Positions 59,336 through 63,332 of a stretch of DNA of 64,000 nucleotides are shown here, one piece after another (position 1 is the stretch's first letter; the number at the start of each line of letters is the position of its first letter). The notes under the pieces are model-generated. The model had not been told where the DNA came from. It saw only the letters and a program-made list of their open reading frames with translations, and searched no databases. Source of the DNA: Chryseobacterium sp. JV274 (GTDB lineage: Bacteria; Bacteroidota; Bacteroidia; Flavobacteriales; Weeksellaceae); contig NZ_LR824569.1 in assembly GCF_903969135.1 (NCBI RefSeq), forward strand, positions 3,803,001-3,867,000, in the 5' to 3' direction. Position numbers and translations under genes: made by a program.

Positions 59336-59399
59336 TTAATATCCCGAATAAAAATATATTTCTTACCATAAAAATTCATCAAAAATTCTATTTTTGAGT

Positions 59400-60113
59400 A
59401 TGAGTAACAGAAACCGCGGAAAAAATACGGGTGATGATCCCCTGTTCGGTTCAGAGAAGCAGATCAGTAAACTAAAATTGGCTGTTGAGGATATGCGGTA
59501 TCTTCTCACCAGAGAGTACCCGGAAAAAGCAGCTTCTGAACTGGTTGGAAACAGATATAGATTGAAAACCCGTCAGATACAAGCTTTGCGGGGAGCTTCA
59601 GCATCAGATTTACAACTTTACAACAGAAGGTTGAAACACGTGGAAGCTTTAGATTTAAAAGGAAAAACGGTTTACCTTGACGGTTTTAATGTCCTGATCC
59701 TGCTGGAAAGTCTGCTTTCCGAAGCTTATATTTTCGAAGGACTGGATGGCTGCATCCGTGATCTTTCCGGTGTTCATGGAACCTATAAAAGAGTTAATCA
59801 AACCCAGAGAGCAGTGGAATTGGTGGCTGCTTTTCACCAAAAAAATAAGATTCAGAAACTGGTATGGATTTTTGACAAACCGGTTTCTAACAGCGGAAGA
59901 ATAAAACAGATTATTCTTGAATTTGCAGAACAGCATCAGCTCAATTGGGAGGGTGATCTGCAGTACAATCCCGATAAATTCCTGGCGGAAAGTTCAGAAA
60001 TCGTTATTTCTTCAGATGCCTGGATTCTGGATCACTGTAAAGAATGGTTTAATTTGATTGGATATTTGATCACAGAAGAAAGCCTTTCTGTTAATCTCAT
60101 CAAAACGAAGTAA
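59400..60113 (+). CDS. DUF434 / DUF5616 family protein
   Basis: 237 aa from the ATG at 59400; a TTG six bases upstream adds two residues. The N-terminal DUF434 region has QISKLKLAVEDMRYLLTREYP and VGNRYRLKTRQIQALRGASAS. The C-terminal part has VYLDGFNVLILLESLL and FEGLDGCIRDLSGVHGTYKR, then VWIFDKPVSNSGRIK and VISSDAWILDHC. The spaced Asp residues resemble a PIN/NYN-like nuclease fold, which is inference. The family's function is not established. It is 2 bp before the next gene, so an operon. Confidence 0.82.
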   Translation: MSNRNRGKNTGDDPLFGSEKQISKLKLAVEDMRYLLTREYPEKAASELVGNRYRLKTRQIQALRGASASDLQLYNRRLKHVEALDLKGKTVYLDGFNVLILLESLLSEAYIFEGLDGCIRDLSGVHGTYKRVNQTQRAVELVAAFHQKNKIQKLVWIFDKPVSNSGRIKQIILEFAEQHQLNWEGDLQYNPDKFLAESSEIVISSDAWILDHCKEWFNLIGYLITEESLSVNLIKTK

Positions 60114-60115
60114 AT

Positions 60116-60766
60116 ATGAATCTGTTTCAACCTTATATTTCTCTGTTTTCAGAAACATGGAAAAGCAAGTATAAAGCTATTTTAGCAGAAGAACATCTGG
60201 AAACTCTGGAGAAAAATATTCATAAGTTTAAGGAAAATATTTTAGAACTTCACCTGCCTTATTTTAATGAAGAAATAATCATTAACAGAAAAGAAAGCTT
60301 TGAAAAATTCATTGATATTCTTGAAAGTAATGATGCAGATGAGGTGAAAACAAAACTTCTGGAAGCAATTTCGTTTGAACATTGGCTGAATATTTTAGGC
60401 CAAAGATTAACCTCCGCAAGCATCCGCGATGAAAGTGCGATCCCATCTTTAAATACAATACTGATCAATGCTTGTCAGGAACCTTTCAATAGTGAAATTA
60501 CCATTGCACAGAGAGCCTGGGAAAAACATATCGGAAGAATGGATGATGATTTCTGGGGCGAAATCAAAGGAAGCAATCAGCAGAAACAGGAGAAAGTAAT
60601 GACGAAAATTCATGATATCCTTGACAACAGAACCTGGTGGAATGTTTTTTTTCATTACAAACATAAACTGGTTTTTGAAATCAGGGAAAAAGAAGGCCAC
60701 GGCATCCGTTGGAGTCATGGAGGAACAAAATTAATTGGGTTTCTCGAAAAATTTATCAACGAATAA
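60116..60766 (+). CDS. Unknown 216-aa protein in operon with the DUF434 gene
   Basis: No family recognised. It appears all-helical: SETWKSKYKAILAEEHLETLEKN, a Glu-rich middle, TKLLEAISFEHWLNILGQRL, and a C-terminal half with RAWEKHIGRMDDDFWGEIKG and the distinct DNRTWWNVFFHYKHKLVFEIREKEGHGIRWSHGGTKLIGFL stretch, notable for its Trp/His content. The ATG follows the DUF434 stop by 2 bp, so the two are co-translated and may act together. Confidence 0.7.
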   Translation: MNLFQPYISLFSETWKSKYKAILAEEHLETLEKNIHKFKENILELHLPYFNEEIIINRKESFEKFIDILESNDADEVKTKLLEAISFEHWLNILGQRLTSASIRDESAIPSLNTILINACQEPFNSEITIAQRAWEKHIGRMDDDFWGEIKGSNQQKQEKVMTKIHDILDNRTWWNVFFHYKHKLVFEIREKEGHGIRWSHGGTKLIGFLEKFINE

Positions 60767-60893: not shown

Positions 60894-62258
60894 ATGAACA
60901 AATCAGATCAACAATTTTCAGCCGAAGAATGGGAAACATGTCTCAAGGTTTTGAATGCTCTGAAGGAAGATCCTTTCATGAACCCTGATAACAAAATATT
61001 TTCAGGACTGATTACTAAGATTCATAAGAACGCCAAAAAACAAAGCCGTTATGAAAACTACTCTGAGATGAAGTTTCATGATCTGGCTGTAAATTCCAAC
61101 TCTGTATTGATGCAGAAGGCTTTGGCGGGAATTTCTGCTTATTATGATAATGAAAAAGAAGAAGTACAGCTCACAAAACTTCAGATTCCGAAAAACTGTT
61201 ACTGTTGTAACGAGAGCTATCAATATGCGCACTCTTTTTATTCCAGATTATGCCCTGTTTGTGCCACAGAAAACTATGAAAAACGTTTTGAAACGGCAGA
61301 TCTTACAGGAAGAAACGTAATTCTGACAGGAGGAAGAGTGAAGGTAGGTTTTGCCACCGCATTGAAGATGTTGAGAAATGGGGCCAATTTGTTTTTGACA
61401 ACCCGTTTTCCGGCACTGGCAATGGAATTGATGCAGCAGGAGGCAGATTATGATAACTGGAAAGACAGACTATGGATCTATGGTCTGGATTTAAGAAATC
61501 TGAAGGCGATTCAGGATTTTATAGACTTCTATAAATTTAATTTTGATACACTGGATATTCTGATCAATAATGCAGCTCAAACCATAAAATATCCTGATGA
61601 ATACTATCTTCCGATTATAAAACGTGAGAAAGAAAAACTGATAGAATTTAAAGATATTCAAACCCTGATTCCTAATCAGACGGAAATTTCAAGTGAAACA
61701 GCAAAACTGGAATATGCCCATAATGAAGAAACTCAGATTGCGCTTACCCGTTTTGGACAACCGGTGGATAACAGAGAAAAAACTAGCTGGAATTCTACTT
61801 TGGAGGAAGTTTCTATGTATGAACTGGTAGAGGTAAACCTCATCAATCATATAGCTCCTTATTTTCTGATCAAAGAACTGAAGCCAATGATGAAAAACTC
61901 TGCGTTTAAAGAGAAATTTATCATTAATGTTACTTCATCAGAAGGAATTTTCAGCTACGAGAATAAAACGGTTTTTCACCCGCATACCAATATGACAAAA
62001 GCAGCTTTGAATATGATGACTCTGACGTCTGCAAAAGAATTTGAAAATGATCAGATCTATATGAGTGCCGTAGACGTAGGATGGATTTCTACAGGAGCTA
62101 AGGAAAGTCTTAGAAAGAAACAGTTTGAGATGGGATACATTCCGCCGCTGGATTCAGTGGATGGTGCAGCGAGAATTCTGCATCCTGTCATAGAAGGAAT
62201 AAAAGGGAATTACCTGAGTGGAGTTTTATTGAAAAATTATAAAGTTAATCCCTGGTAA
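60894..62258 (+). CDS. Short-chain dehydrogenase-like protein with zinc ribbon, catalytic Tyr replaced
   Basis: 454 aa. The N-terminal ~95 residues are unassigned. A zinc ribbon follows (C102-x-x-C105 and C120-PV-C123), then a Rossmann SDR domain from ~138: cofactor loop TGGRVKVG (145-152), NNAAQT (225-230), INVTSS (344-349). The SDR YxxxK site reads T365-N-M-T-K369: the Lys is kept and the Tyr is Thr. It may be a pseudoenzyme that binds a nucleotide or cofactor, or have altered chemistry. About 60 residues inserted at ~240-300 are unusual. Three tRNA-like elements lie directly downstream, suggesting an RNA-linked role; that is inference. Confidence 0.82.
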   Translation: MNKSDQQFSAEEWETCLKVLNALKEDPFMNPDNKIFSGLITKIHKNAKKQSRYENYSEMKFHDLAVNSNSVLMQKALAGISAYYDNEKEEVQLTKLQIPKNCYCCNESYQYAHSFYSRLCPVCATENYEKRFETADLTGRNVILTGGRVKVGFATALKMLRNGANLFLTTRFPALAMELMQQEADYDNWKDRLWIYGLDLRNLKAIQDFIDFYKFNFDTLDILINNAAQTIKYPDEYYLPIIKREKEKLIEFKDIQTLIPNQTEISSETAKLEYAHNEETQIALTRFGQPVDNREKTSWNSTLEEVSMYELVEVNLINHIAPYFLIKELKPMMKNSAFKEKFIINVTSSEGIFSYENKTVFHPHTNMTKAALNMMTLTSAKEFENDQIYMSAVDVGWISTGAKESLRKKQFEMGYIPPLDSVDGAARILHPVIEGIKGNYLSGVLLKNYKVNPW

Positions 62259-62267
62259 AATCCATAC

Positions 62268-62338
62268 GGAGATAATAGTAATAATGGAAAAATACATTTT
62301 GCTAAAATGAGTTGCAGGTTCGATTCCTGCTTATCTCC
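62268..62338 (+). ncRNA. tRNA-like RNA 1, D-armless, anticodon-like loop GCU
   Basis: 71 nt. An 8-bp acceptor-like stem, GGAGATAA / TTATCTCC, and a perfect T-arm, GCAGG-TTCGATT-CCTGC, stack exactly as in a tRNA. Between them is TAGTAATAATGGAAAAATA in place of a D-arm (a GG as in a D-loop but no stem), then the hairpin CATT-TTGCTAA-AATG. The 7-nt loop looks like an anticodon loop with GCT. Element 3 shares this design with compensatory changes. No 3' CCA. Function unknown; a Y-RNA-like tRNA mimic or damaged-tRNA decoy are options. Confidence 0.72.
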
Positions 62339-62346
62339 CAACTATT

Positions 62347-62394
62347 GAAACGGTAGCTCAACGGAGGTTGCGTGTTCGATTCCCGTCCGTTTCA
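62347..62394 (+). ncRNA. tRNA-like RNA 2, minimal, no anticodon arm
   Basis: About 48 nt. A perfect 7-bp acceptor-like stem GAAACGG / CCGTTTC with discriminator A. TAGCTCAACGGAGG resembles the start of a canonical D-arm, and it is followed directly by a T-arm with the loop TTCGATT (stem GCGTG/CCCGT, one mismatch and one G-U). There is no anticodon arm. It could be a deleted tRNA remnant or a functional mini-tRNA. Confidence 0.55.
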
Positions 62395-62441
62395 CAAAAG
62401 TACACAGTTTACAATGAGAAGCTGTACTCCCAAAGTAAATT

Positions 62442-62512
62442 GGAGATAATAGTTTAAATGGAAAAATAATTCCTGTACAGAATGGTTGCGTGTTCGAATC
62501 ACGCTTATCTCC
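62442..62512 (+). ncRNA. tRNA-like RNA 3, D-armless, anticodon-like loop GUA
   Basis: 71 nt, the same length as element 1. Acceptor stem GGAGATAA / TTATCTCC is identical. TAGTTTAAATGGAAAAATA matches element 1 at 16 of 19 positions. The middle hairpin is ATTC-CTGTACA-GAAT and the T-arm GCGTG-TTCGAAT-CACGC: every changed pair keeps pairing (C-G to A-T, T-A to C-G, A-T to G-C, G-C to T-A). This covariation argues that both hairpins are selected. The spacer 62395-62441 has a GTACA/TGTAC hairpin. Confidence 0.72.
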
Positions 62513-62546
62513 CTAAGAAAATAGTGTATAATAAAAATTAAAAACA

Positions 62547-63332
62547 ATGAACACATACATTGATATTGGCATTAATCTGACCAATAAACAGTTCTATAAT
62601 GAACACGAAGAAATTATCAACCGCGCGTTGGACGATGGTGTAGAACATATGATTCTTACAGGAACCAGCGTAAGAGGAAGCAAAGAATCTGCTGAGATTG
62701 TAGAAGAATATCCGGAAATTCTATTTTCGACAGCGGGAATTCATCCTCACGATGCCCAATCTTTTAACGGCGAAAGTATCGGGGAACTCAGGAAATTATT
62801 AAAACAAGATCATGTGATTTCAGTAGGAGAGTGCGGATTGGATTTTGACCGTGATTTTTCTCCGAGACCCATTCAGGAAAAATGTTACAAAGCCCAGCTG
62901 GAACTTGCTATAGATGTGAATAAACCCCTTTTTCTTCATGAAAGATCAGCGTTTAAAAGGTTTAATGAGATCACAGATGAATATCTTTCCCAATTACCTG
63001 AAGCTGTTGTACATTGCTTTACGGGGACATTGGATGAAGCGAAGCTCTATCTGGAAAAAGGATTTTATTTAGGATTCACAGGCGCAGTCAGTGATGAAAA
63101 AAGATTTAAACACCTGGAAGATGTTATAAAATATGTTCCTCTCGACAGGATGATGATTGAGACAGATGCTCCTTTTATGCTTCCGAAAAATATGCCCAGA
63201 ATGCAGAACAGGCGCAATGAACCCTCTTTTTTACCTTATGTAGCACAAACGATTGCCCATCTGAAGAAGATAAGCATTTCCGAAGTCGCAGACGAGACCA
63301 CAGAAACGGCCAGAAATTTTTTCAGACTATAA
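62547..63332 (+). CDS. tatD: TatD-family metal-dependent hydrolase
   Basis: A 261-aa TIM-barrel hydrolase. Like E. coli TatD it starts YIDIGINLTNKQF rather than with the HxH of YcfH. It has FSTAGIHPHDAQSF, SVGECGLDFDRDF (metal Glu), PLFLHERSAFKRF, EAVVHCFTGTLDEAK and MIETDAPFMLPKNMP (metal Asp). Family members are 3'-5' exonucleases acting on DNA and RNA. It sits next to the tRNA-like elements, which may or may not be meaningful. Confidence 0.92.
   Translation: MNTYIDIGINLTNKQFYNEHEEIINRALDDGVEHMILTGTSVRGSKESAEIVEEYPEILFSTAGIHPHDAQSFNGESIGELRKLLKQDHVISVGECGLDFDRDFSPRPIQEKCYKAQLELAIDVNKPLFLHERSAFKRFNEITDEYLSQLPEAVVHCFTGTLDEAKLYLEKGFYLGFTGAVSDEKRFKHLEDVIKYVPLDRMMIETDAPFMLPKNMPRMQNRRNEPSFLPYVAQTIAHLKKISISEVADETTETARNFFRL

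Follow-up and report, generated by a model that had tools for sequence, protein, structure and literature searches.

Salmonella encodes Y RNAs (YrlA) together with Rsr/Ro60 and RtcB in its rsr-yrlBA-rtcBA operon, and passages of the paper on this system suggest that the tRNA-like domain of Y RNA might inhibit an anticodon nuclease (PMC7790460). In jumbo phages, according to passages of another paper, sets of tRNAs stand in for cleaved host tRNAs (PMC7824862). Here we analysed a 64,000-nt stretch of the Chryseobacterium sp. JV274 genome (the window) and found an array of tRNA-like elements beside a gene for an SDR protein. The elements are real and not tRNA debris. Literature searches, covering listings and passages of papers, returned no description of such RNAs beside an SDR gene, which is no proof of absence in print.

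Alignment with four related loci (L024, L030, L032 and L033) divided the array into four slots between the SDR/zinc-ribbon gene and tatD, of which slots 1 and 4 are intact and slots 2 and 3 are remnants of internal deletions. All features of the locus lie on the forward strand. The SDR/zinc-ribbon gene (60894-62258; Pfam adh_short, 8.3e-18), which encodes an SDR fold joined to a helical N-terminal portion and to a zinc-ribbon-like portion with four cysteines, is the gene with which the array is linked. Upstream of it are the genes for a DUF434/DUF5616 protein (59394-60113; Pfam PF18481, 5.8e-53, and PF04256, 1.1e-15) and for a 216-aa protein with no Pfam match and no assigned family (60116-60766). 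Both families also occur without an array: in the genus sample described below, the first occurs at 35 of 41 SDR-positive and 41 of 52 SDR-negative loci, and the second at 34 of 41 and 49 of 52, respectively. On its other side the array borders the gene for a TatD-type nuclease (62547-63332; Pfam PF01026, 4.7e-69), and additional module genes between SDR and tatD, seen in relatives, are absent from the window. The tatD product weakly resembles the phage-defence protein QatD (PADLOC, 1.4e-19; NCBIfam, 2.5e-19, below cut-off); this was the only PADLOC match.

The two intact elements are 71 nt long and span positions -1 to 73. An earlier note made from the letters of this DNA had placed them exactly, at 62268-62338 (slot 1) and 62442-62512 (slot 4). 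ARAGORN called them as 'Ser(GCT)' at 62269-62339, with the loop TTGCTAA, and 'Tyr(GTA)' at 62443-62513, with the loop CTGTACA and a GGAAA D-loop. The 8-bp acceptor, the 5-bp T-stem with a TTCGA loop and the 4-bp hairpin with a 7-nt loop that the note described are all visible in the sequence, as are compensatory T-stem differences between the copies. Both elements have a G-1:C73 pair. Scores with the Rfam tRNA model were 38.5 bits for the first and 43.6 bits for the second in a permissive regional scan (gathering score 29); the Rfam scan of the whole 64-kb window listed the second, and the first was absent. The lack of a D-stem, taken by the note as a feature, held only in part and is wrong for slot 4, where ARAGORN pairs GTTT with AAAT (4 bp, one of them G-U). 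A cloverleaf with acceptor, D-, anticodon and T-arms was recovered by ARAGORN, by the Rfam tRNA model and by covariation, with 2 bp of the D-stem left in slot 1 according to ARAGORN. Folding z-scores were -4.54 for slot 1 and -2.69 for slot 4, and the minimum-energy folds contained the acceptor, the T-arm and one more hairpin, not the cloverleaf. Both elements end in C73 C74; most sampled canonical tRNA genes of the same genome encode base 73 and the first C of CCA alone.

What the note had counted as a third element (62346-62394) is an internal-deletion copy of the slot-2 element that is complete in relatives; it has lost the 3' half of the D-stem and the anticodon arm, and its fold was no better than chance (z -1.37). 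Of slot 3 (about 62398-62431, limits approximate), which the note overlooked, only the ends of the acceptor and a portion of the D region survive. That two of the four slots are internal-deletion remnants would suit an array of decayed tRNAs, a reading we take up with the covariation below.

Our genus sample comprised the tatD orthologue, found with or without an array, and its upstream flank (8 kb except at L111) from 93 genomes. The SDR gene was placed upstream of tatD by tblastn, as a full gene in 39 loci, and all 39 had two to seven ARAGORN elements between SDR and tatD, 166 in total and 151 distinct. The array DNA itself was matched by blastn in 33 of 118 genus genomes. ORF clustering gave 41 SDR-positive loci, the two beyond the 39 holding SDR fragments only, one of 192 aa with one element (L108) and one of 90 aa with none (L041). 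Of the 52 SDR-negative loci, six have module genes (the 640-aa, 150-aa or Sir2 gene), with an adjoining element at four and, by ARAGORN, none at two (L044 and L062). At the 46 SDR-negative loci free of module genes, ARAGORN found no element, and tRNA-Met alone in six.

The usual gene order at array-free loci is the DUF434 gene, the 216-aa gene and tatD. Many SDR-positive loci have extra genes after the array, encoding proteins of about 150 aa and about 640 aa, a Sir2 protein (PF02146, 3.3e-39) and a 347-aa protein; the 150-aa product and the 640-aa repeat protein had no Pfam match above cut-off. Among genus loci L024 to L112, these module genes (150-aa, 640-aa repeat and Sir2) alternate with further tRNA-like elements. 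Elements that start a few nucleotides past the SDR gene and sit between module genes, on the same strand, could be operon punctuation, that is, tRNA-like RNase P/RNase Z processing sites or regulatory sites that separate messages and have no later function. We consider this improbable: it leaves the serial elements, the -1:73 pair and the variable loop unexplained, and SDR paralogues usually have the element upstream of the gene.

We then extended the comparison to public genomes with an SDR alignment and kept the best 80 of 150 loci, the Chryseobacterium part of which overlaps the genus set. Elements were present at all 80 of these best 80 of 150 Bacteroidota loci, and within 500 nt downstream of SDR in 76. 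They lay just upstream of it in three (Sphingobacterium, a Chitinophagales MAG and a Mucilaginibacter MAG) and were separated from it by one gene at the last (L252). Forty-five of the best 80 of 150 loci lie outside Chryseobacterium and its MAG relatives, in Flavobacterium, Kordia, Tenacibaculum, Lacinutrix, Aquimarina, Aureivirga, Dysgonomonas, Sphingobacterium and several MAGs, one of them labelled Thalassovita. The elements are conserved both in the genus and across Bacteroidota SDR loci (the best 80 of 150); the condition that the note had set for refutation in favour of decay, absence from related genomes, did not apply.

SDR paralogues (51-55% identity) had one element each, upstream, at 10 of 10 loci, with a spacing of 21-24 nt in nine and of 491 nt in G086, where the alignment used for the count begins at residue 157. 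This single element (L140-L149) carries the anticodons CTA, GCT, ATA or GAT in different genomes. On a Deinococcus plasmid (NZ_CP092194.1), a GGAAA element lies 57 nt upstream of an SDR homologue with 36% identity. Two hairpins with a long outer stem stand beside it (L287:7775-7811 and L287:7934-7968), with anticodon-like 7-nt loops (CTGCTAA and CTCCAAC) and fold z-scores of -4.75 and -4.42; in this one case they resemble miniature tRNA mimics, or else terminators. No elements were found within the roughly 1.5-kb flanks of 15 remoter SDR homologues (34-40% identity over part of the protein), nor at three actinobacterial homologues. Neither the array DNA nor the SDR protein had a match in the phage records, and no sign of a phage origin was seen. 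One viral contig with an SDR relative (41-51% identity) gave no ARAGORN hit on the part covered, which excludes the upstream side.

The elements form one family, recognisable by a GGAA D-loop, an acceptor pair at -1:73, covarying helices and odd anticodon loops. The D-loop motif GGAA(A/G) occurs in 136 of 151 distinct genus elements versus 0 of 38 distinct canonical tRNAs of the window's own genome. This canonical set is a sample, drawn from 61 genes in 35 stretches and the tRNA-Met of the window, whereas Rfam marks 94 places in the whole genome. The motif recurs in 118 of 124 elements of the 45 other loci (among the best 80 of 150); elsewhere it was found in one of the 16 genes of a tRNA array downstream of the window and in 8 of 92 other tRNA genes at the same loci. 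Pairing of -1 with 73 (G-C, A-T, T-A or C-G) is possible in 137 of 166 genus elements, where 98 would be expected under independence, and in 91 of 124 elements of the 45 other loci among the best 80 of 150 (57 expected), compared with 13 of 37 canonical tRNAs and 4 of 16 genes of the downstream array. The elements do not have the canonical 7-bp acceptor with an unpaired base 73. An A2-U71 pair, present in 142 of 151 genus elements versus 3 of 38 canonical tRNAs, is not general, as it occurs in 44 of 124 elements of the 45 other loci (among the best 80 of 150). A scan of 395 genomes of the phylum with the D-arm pattern gave mostly scattered single hits, similar in number to those of a reversed control, so that away from SDR loci the pattern by itself lacks specificity. 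Many of the hits within the genus are clustered at SDR loci, with single hits in SDR-free genomes too, and in the window's own genome slot 4 is the sole site.

In the two large clusters of relatives (56 distinct sequences), 98.0% of the cells in the helices were paired, versus a mean of 82.6% and a maximum of 84.7% in shuffled controls and 42-54% in slid versions, and 14 of 21 pairs showed changes on both sides. The window's own cluster (27 distinct sequences) was paired at 93.7%, with both-side changes in 9 of 21 pairs. The shuffles ignore relatedness and also yield 11.6 and 5.2 pairs with both-side changes, respectively; the share of paired cells is for this reason the stronger number. Counted over the 56 distinct relatives, the four pairs of the D-stem are present in 56, 48, 56 and 56 sequences. 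This covariation, together with the constant SDR linkage across Bacteroidota (best 80 of 150 loci) and a signature absent from canonical tRNAs, makes it hardly credible that the elements are decayed tRNA remnants, and the linkage and covariation led us to reject that reading despite the two remnants in the window.

The SDR partner was modelled with AlphaFold (pLDDT 82.5; good overall, with weak stretches N-terminally and near residues 268-278 and 351-361). The model and its structural matches indicate an NAD(P)-binding Rossmann fold; the best Foldseek matches were NADP-binding SDRs, all of them generic SDRs. In 30 aligned SDR sequences, Cys102, Cys105, Cys120 and Cys123 are invariant, and so is the stretch HPHTNMTK (30 of 30), which contains Thr365-x3-Lys369. 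The classical SDR catalytic motif is Tyr-x3-Lys. In our protein Thr takes the expected place of the catalytic Tyr, so the protein may bind nucleotide without having classical SDR activity.

Past the end of the window, the same genome continues with bpX4, bpMoxR, bpX0/bpX1, bpX3, 16 tRNA genes, an RNase H-like protein, an Rnl2-type RNA ligase and a TROVE/Ro60 protein. The TROVE/Ro60 gene lies about 24.9 kb beyond the window end, with the ligase in between, and so does not adjoin the RNAs. In other genera, SDR units adjoin genes for RtcB, PNKP, T4 Rnl1- and Rnl2-type ligases, RlaP nucleotidyltransferases, Band-7 and RNase T-like proteins (Pfam confirmation on one representative each). At least one repair-type family lies within 6 kb at 26 of the 45 loci outside Chryseobacterium (among the best 80 of 150), and none was recognised at 19; Band-7 genes occur at five of these 45 loci, and a TROVE-like fragment, assigned by clustering, within 6 kb at two. 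The note's guess about Ro60 and RNA repair was nearer the mark than the window alone could show. Plain identity with Y RNA was not supported: no Y-RNA family appeared among the Rfam matches, with gathering scans of the window and nine loci giving tRNA alone and the permissive regional scan giving no Y RNA, and two genomes with SDR and elements (G062 and G095) have no TROVE match. Of the 118 genus genomes, 85 have TROVE and 117 have RtcB, so that their mere presence is not specific.

The 16 tRNA genes (C1:3877323-3879691; L156:11323-13691) begin about 10 kb past the window end and cover 14 amino-acid types. U33 and purine-37 are present in 13 of 16, and base 73, compared by eye, is as in the canonical tRNA of the same type in 15 of 16; this array looks like a spare tRNA set. 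At three Kordia loci (L219, L224 and L226), the SDR unit is closely followed by 10-20 tRNA genes.

The anticodon loops of the elements often depart from decoding rules. U33 and purine-37 are both present in 70 of 134 distinct 7-nt genus loops versus 35 of 35 canonical loops, and in 48 of 112 loops outside the genus (45 loci among the best 80 of 150); in the window the loop of slot 1 keeps this rule and that of slot 4, with C37, breaks it. Seventeen of the 151 distinct genus elements have a loop that is not 7 nt long, and 18 of the 134 distinct 7-nt loops carry A34. On these grounds the elements are probably non-decoding. Spare working tRNAs that replace those destroyed by toxins or phage defence would likewise have a tRNA-type fold and, in part, ordinary loops, and the separate 16-gene set in the same island resembles such a spare set. 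We nevertheless find it very improbable that the elements serve this purpose, with U33 or purine-37 lost in about half of them, loops of 6 or 8 nt, A34 at the frequency just given, the extra -1:73 pair, and 'Ser' elements without a long variable arm. Ordinary tRNAs were rejected as a candidate, contradicted by that same extra pair and by the loss of U33/purine-37.

Anticodons vary even inside clusters of otherwise similar elements. Among 188 near-identical pairs from different loci, which are not independent of one another, the anticodon differs in 54; per-site differences in these non-independent pairs are 10.1, 11.2 and 13.8% at positions 34-36, 20.7% at 32, 12.2% at 37 and 3.7% at 38, versus 3.9% in the body, 5.1% in the D-loop and 4.7% in the T-loop. 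Within one genome, several RNAs that differ in their loops are maintained together. Twenty of 134 loops are identical to a canonical loop of the window's own genome (shuffled mean 7.9, maximum 16 in 1000 shuffles), and 114 match none; in 14 elements the anticodon arm resembles a canonical arm by 80% or more, and two of these 14 share base 73 with the canonical tRNA. Loops that break the rules and vary to this unusual degree suggest tRNA mimics. They could also simply drift, if the RNAs were Y-RNA-like scaffolds whose body is what matters, lending structure to an RNP of the SDR protein (or of Ro60 or Band-7) in RNA quality control. A constant body signature linked to one protein, the RNA-repair setting and the fact that the most variable position, 32, is not in the anticodon would all fit. 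Such a scaffold accounts less well for the retention of several RNAs with distinct loops in one genome, for D- and T-loops that vary little more than the body when the anticodon loop varies well above it, and for the two genomes that carry the RNAs and lack Ro60. On balance we regard it as unlikely, though a serious contender.

The note's central proposal, tRNA mimics under structural selection that are tied to the SDR gene in a repair setting, agrees with the linkage, the covariation and the neighbouring genes. Linkage, structure and signature give good support to the view that the elements are tRNA mimics associated with the SDR protein, with no part in translation. Our preferred explanation goes further: a non-decoding family of tRNA-like RNAs beside a dedicated SDR/zinc-ribbon protein, with anticodon loops that would act as nuclease bait. 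We hold it tentatively, with somewhat less than even confidence. In this explanation, one to about seven RNAs per set beside the SDR gene, often inside Bacteroidota RNA-repair islands, would be co-transcribed with that gene and excised from the transcript by tRNA-processing enzymes. The SDR protein would grip the common elbow and acceptor, and the variable anticodon loops would be the working face, as bait for anticodon nucleases. The RNAs might be sacrificial decoys, or tripwires whose cut ends switch on the adjoining repair genes.

We count the 20 loops identical to canonical ones, a number above all 1000 shuffles, as mimicry in favour of this explanation. The use of the loops as bait is nonetheless our inference. 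Its main alternative is that an unused loop drifts freely, as a loop without function would vary as well; many loops (6 nt, no U33) are also unlike natural nuclease targets, and we identified no opposing anticodon nuclease. The three loci without elements (L041, L044 and L062) and the decay of half of the window's array count against the explanation as a whole, and so do the 114 loops that match no canonical one, the 19 loci with no repair family recognised within 6 kb, the commonness of TROVE and RtcB in the genus and the non-independence of the near-identical pairs. A stronger version, in which the SDR protein binds the RNAs by a common handle and their diverse loops form a repertoire that catches or reports tRNA-cutting enzymes and triggers repair, strikes us as possible and rather doubtful; if true, it would parallel, at the level of RNA, a diversified immune repertoire.

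Gene finders score such RNAs as ordinary tRNAs with odd anticodons. With its GGAA D-loop, -1:73 pair and SDR neighbour, the family can readily be recognised and put to the test. If the elements are indeed SDR-tied, repair-linked tRNA mimics, they would offer a handle, in cultivable strains, on how tRNA cleavage is sensed and survived, and also on the role of Ro60-type RNA-repair islands.

Burroughs and Aravind reportedly described, in 2016, a novel tRNA-like molecule in SPFH/Band-7 RNA-repair systems. Given the Band-7 genes at five of the 45 loci among the best 80 of 150, this is possibly the same or a related RNA; the SDR linkage, the GGAA signature and the loop variation of our family are not known to be described there. 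The MoxR-vWA-beta-propeller ternary conflict systems resemble our island in that bpMoxR, bpX0, bpX1, bpX3 and bpX4 lie just downstream in it; they differ in that, in the part of Kaur et al. (2020) covered, 'tRNA' and 'RNA repair' appear once each, in the reference list only (PMC7159879). Jumbo-phage sets, as presented in passages on them, likewise group tRNA-type genes with RNA repair and compare best with the downstream 16-gene set, but they substitute for cleaved tRNAs, whereas our elements break decoding rules (PMC7824862). The YrlA system, as far as passages of its description go, shares with our locus a tRNA-like RNA partner encoded with RNA-repair genes (PMC7790460). In our family, by contrast, Ro60 is 25 kb away or missing, and the constant partner of the several RNAs at each locus is the SDR/zinc-ribbon protein.
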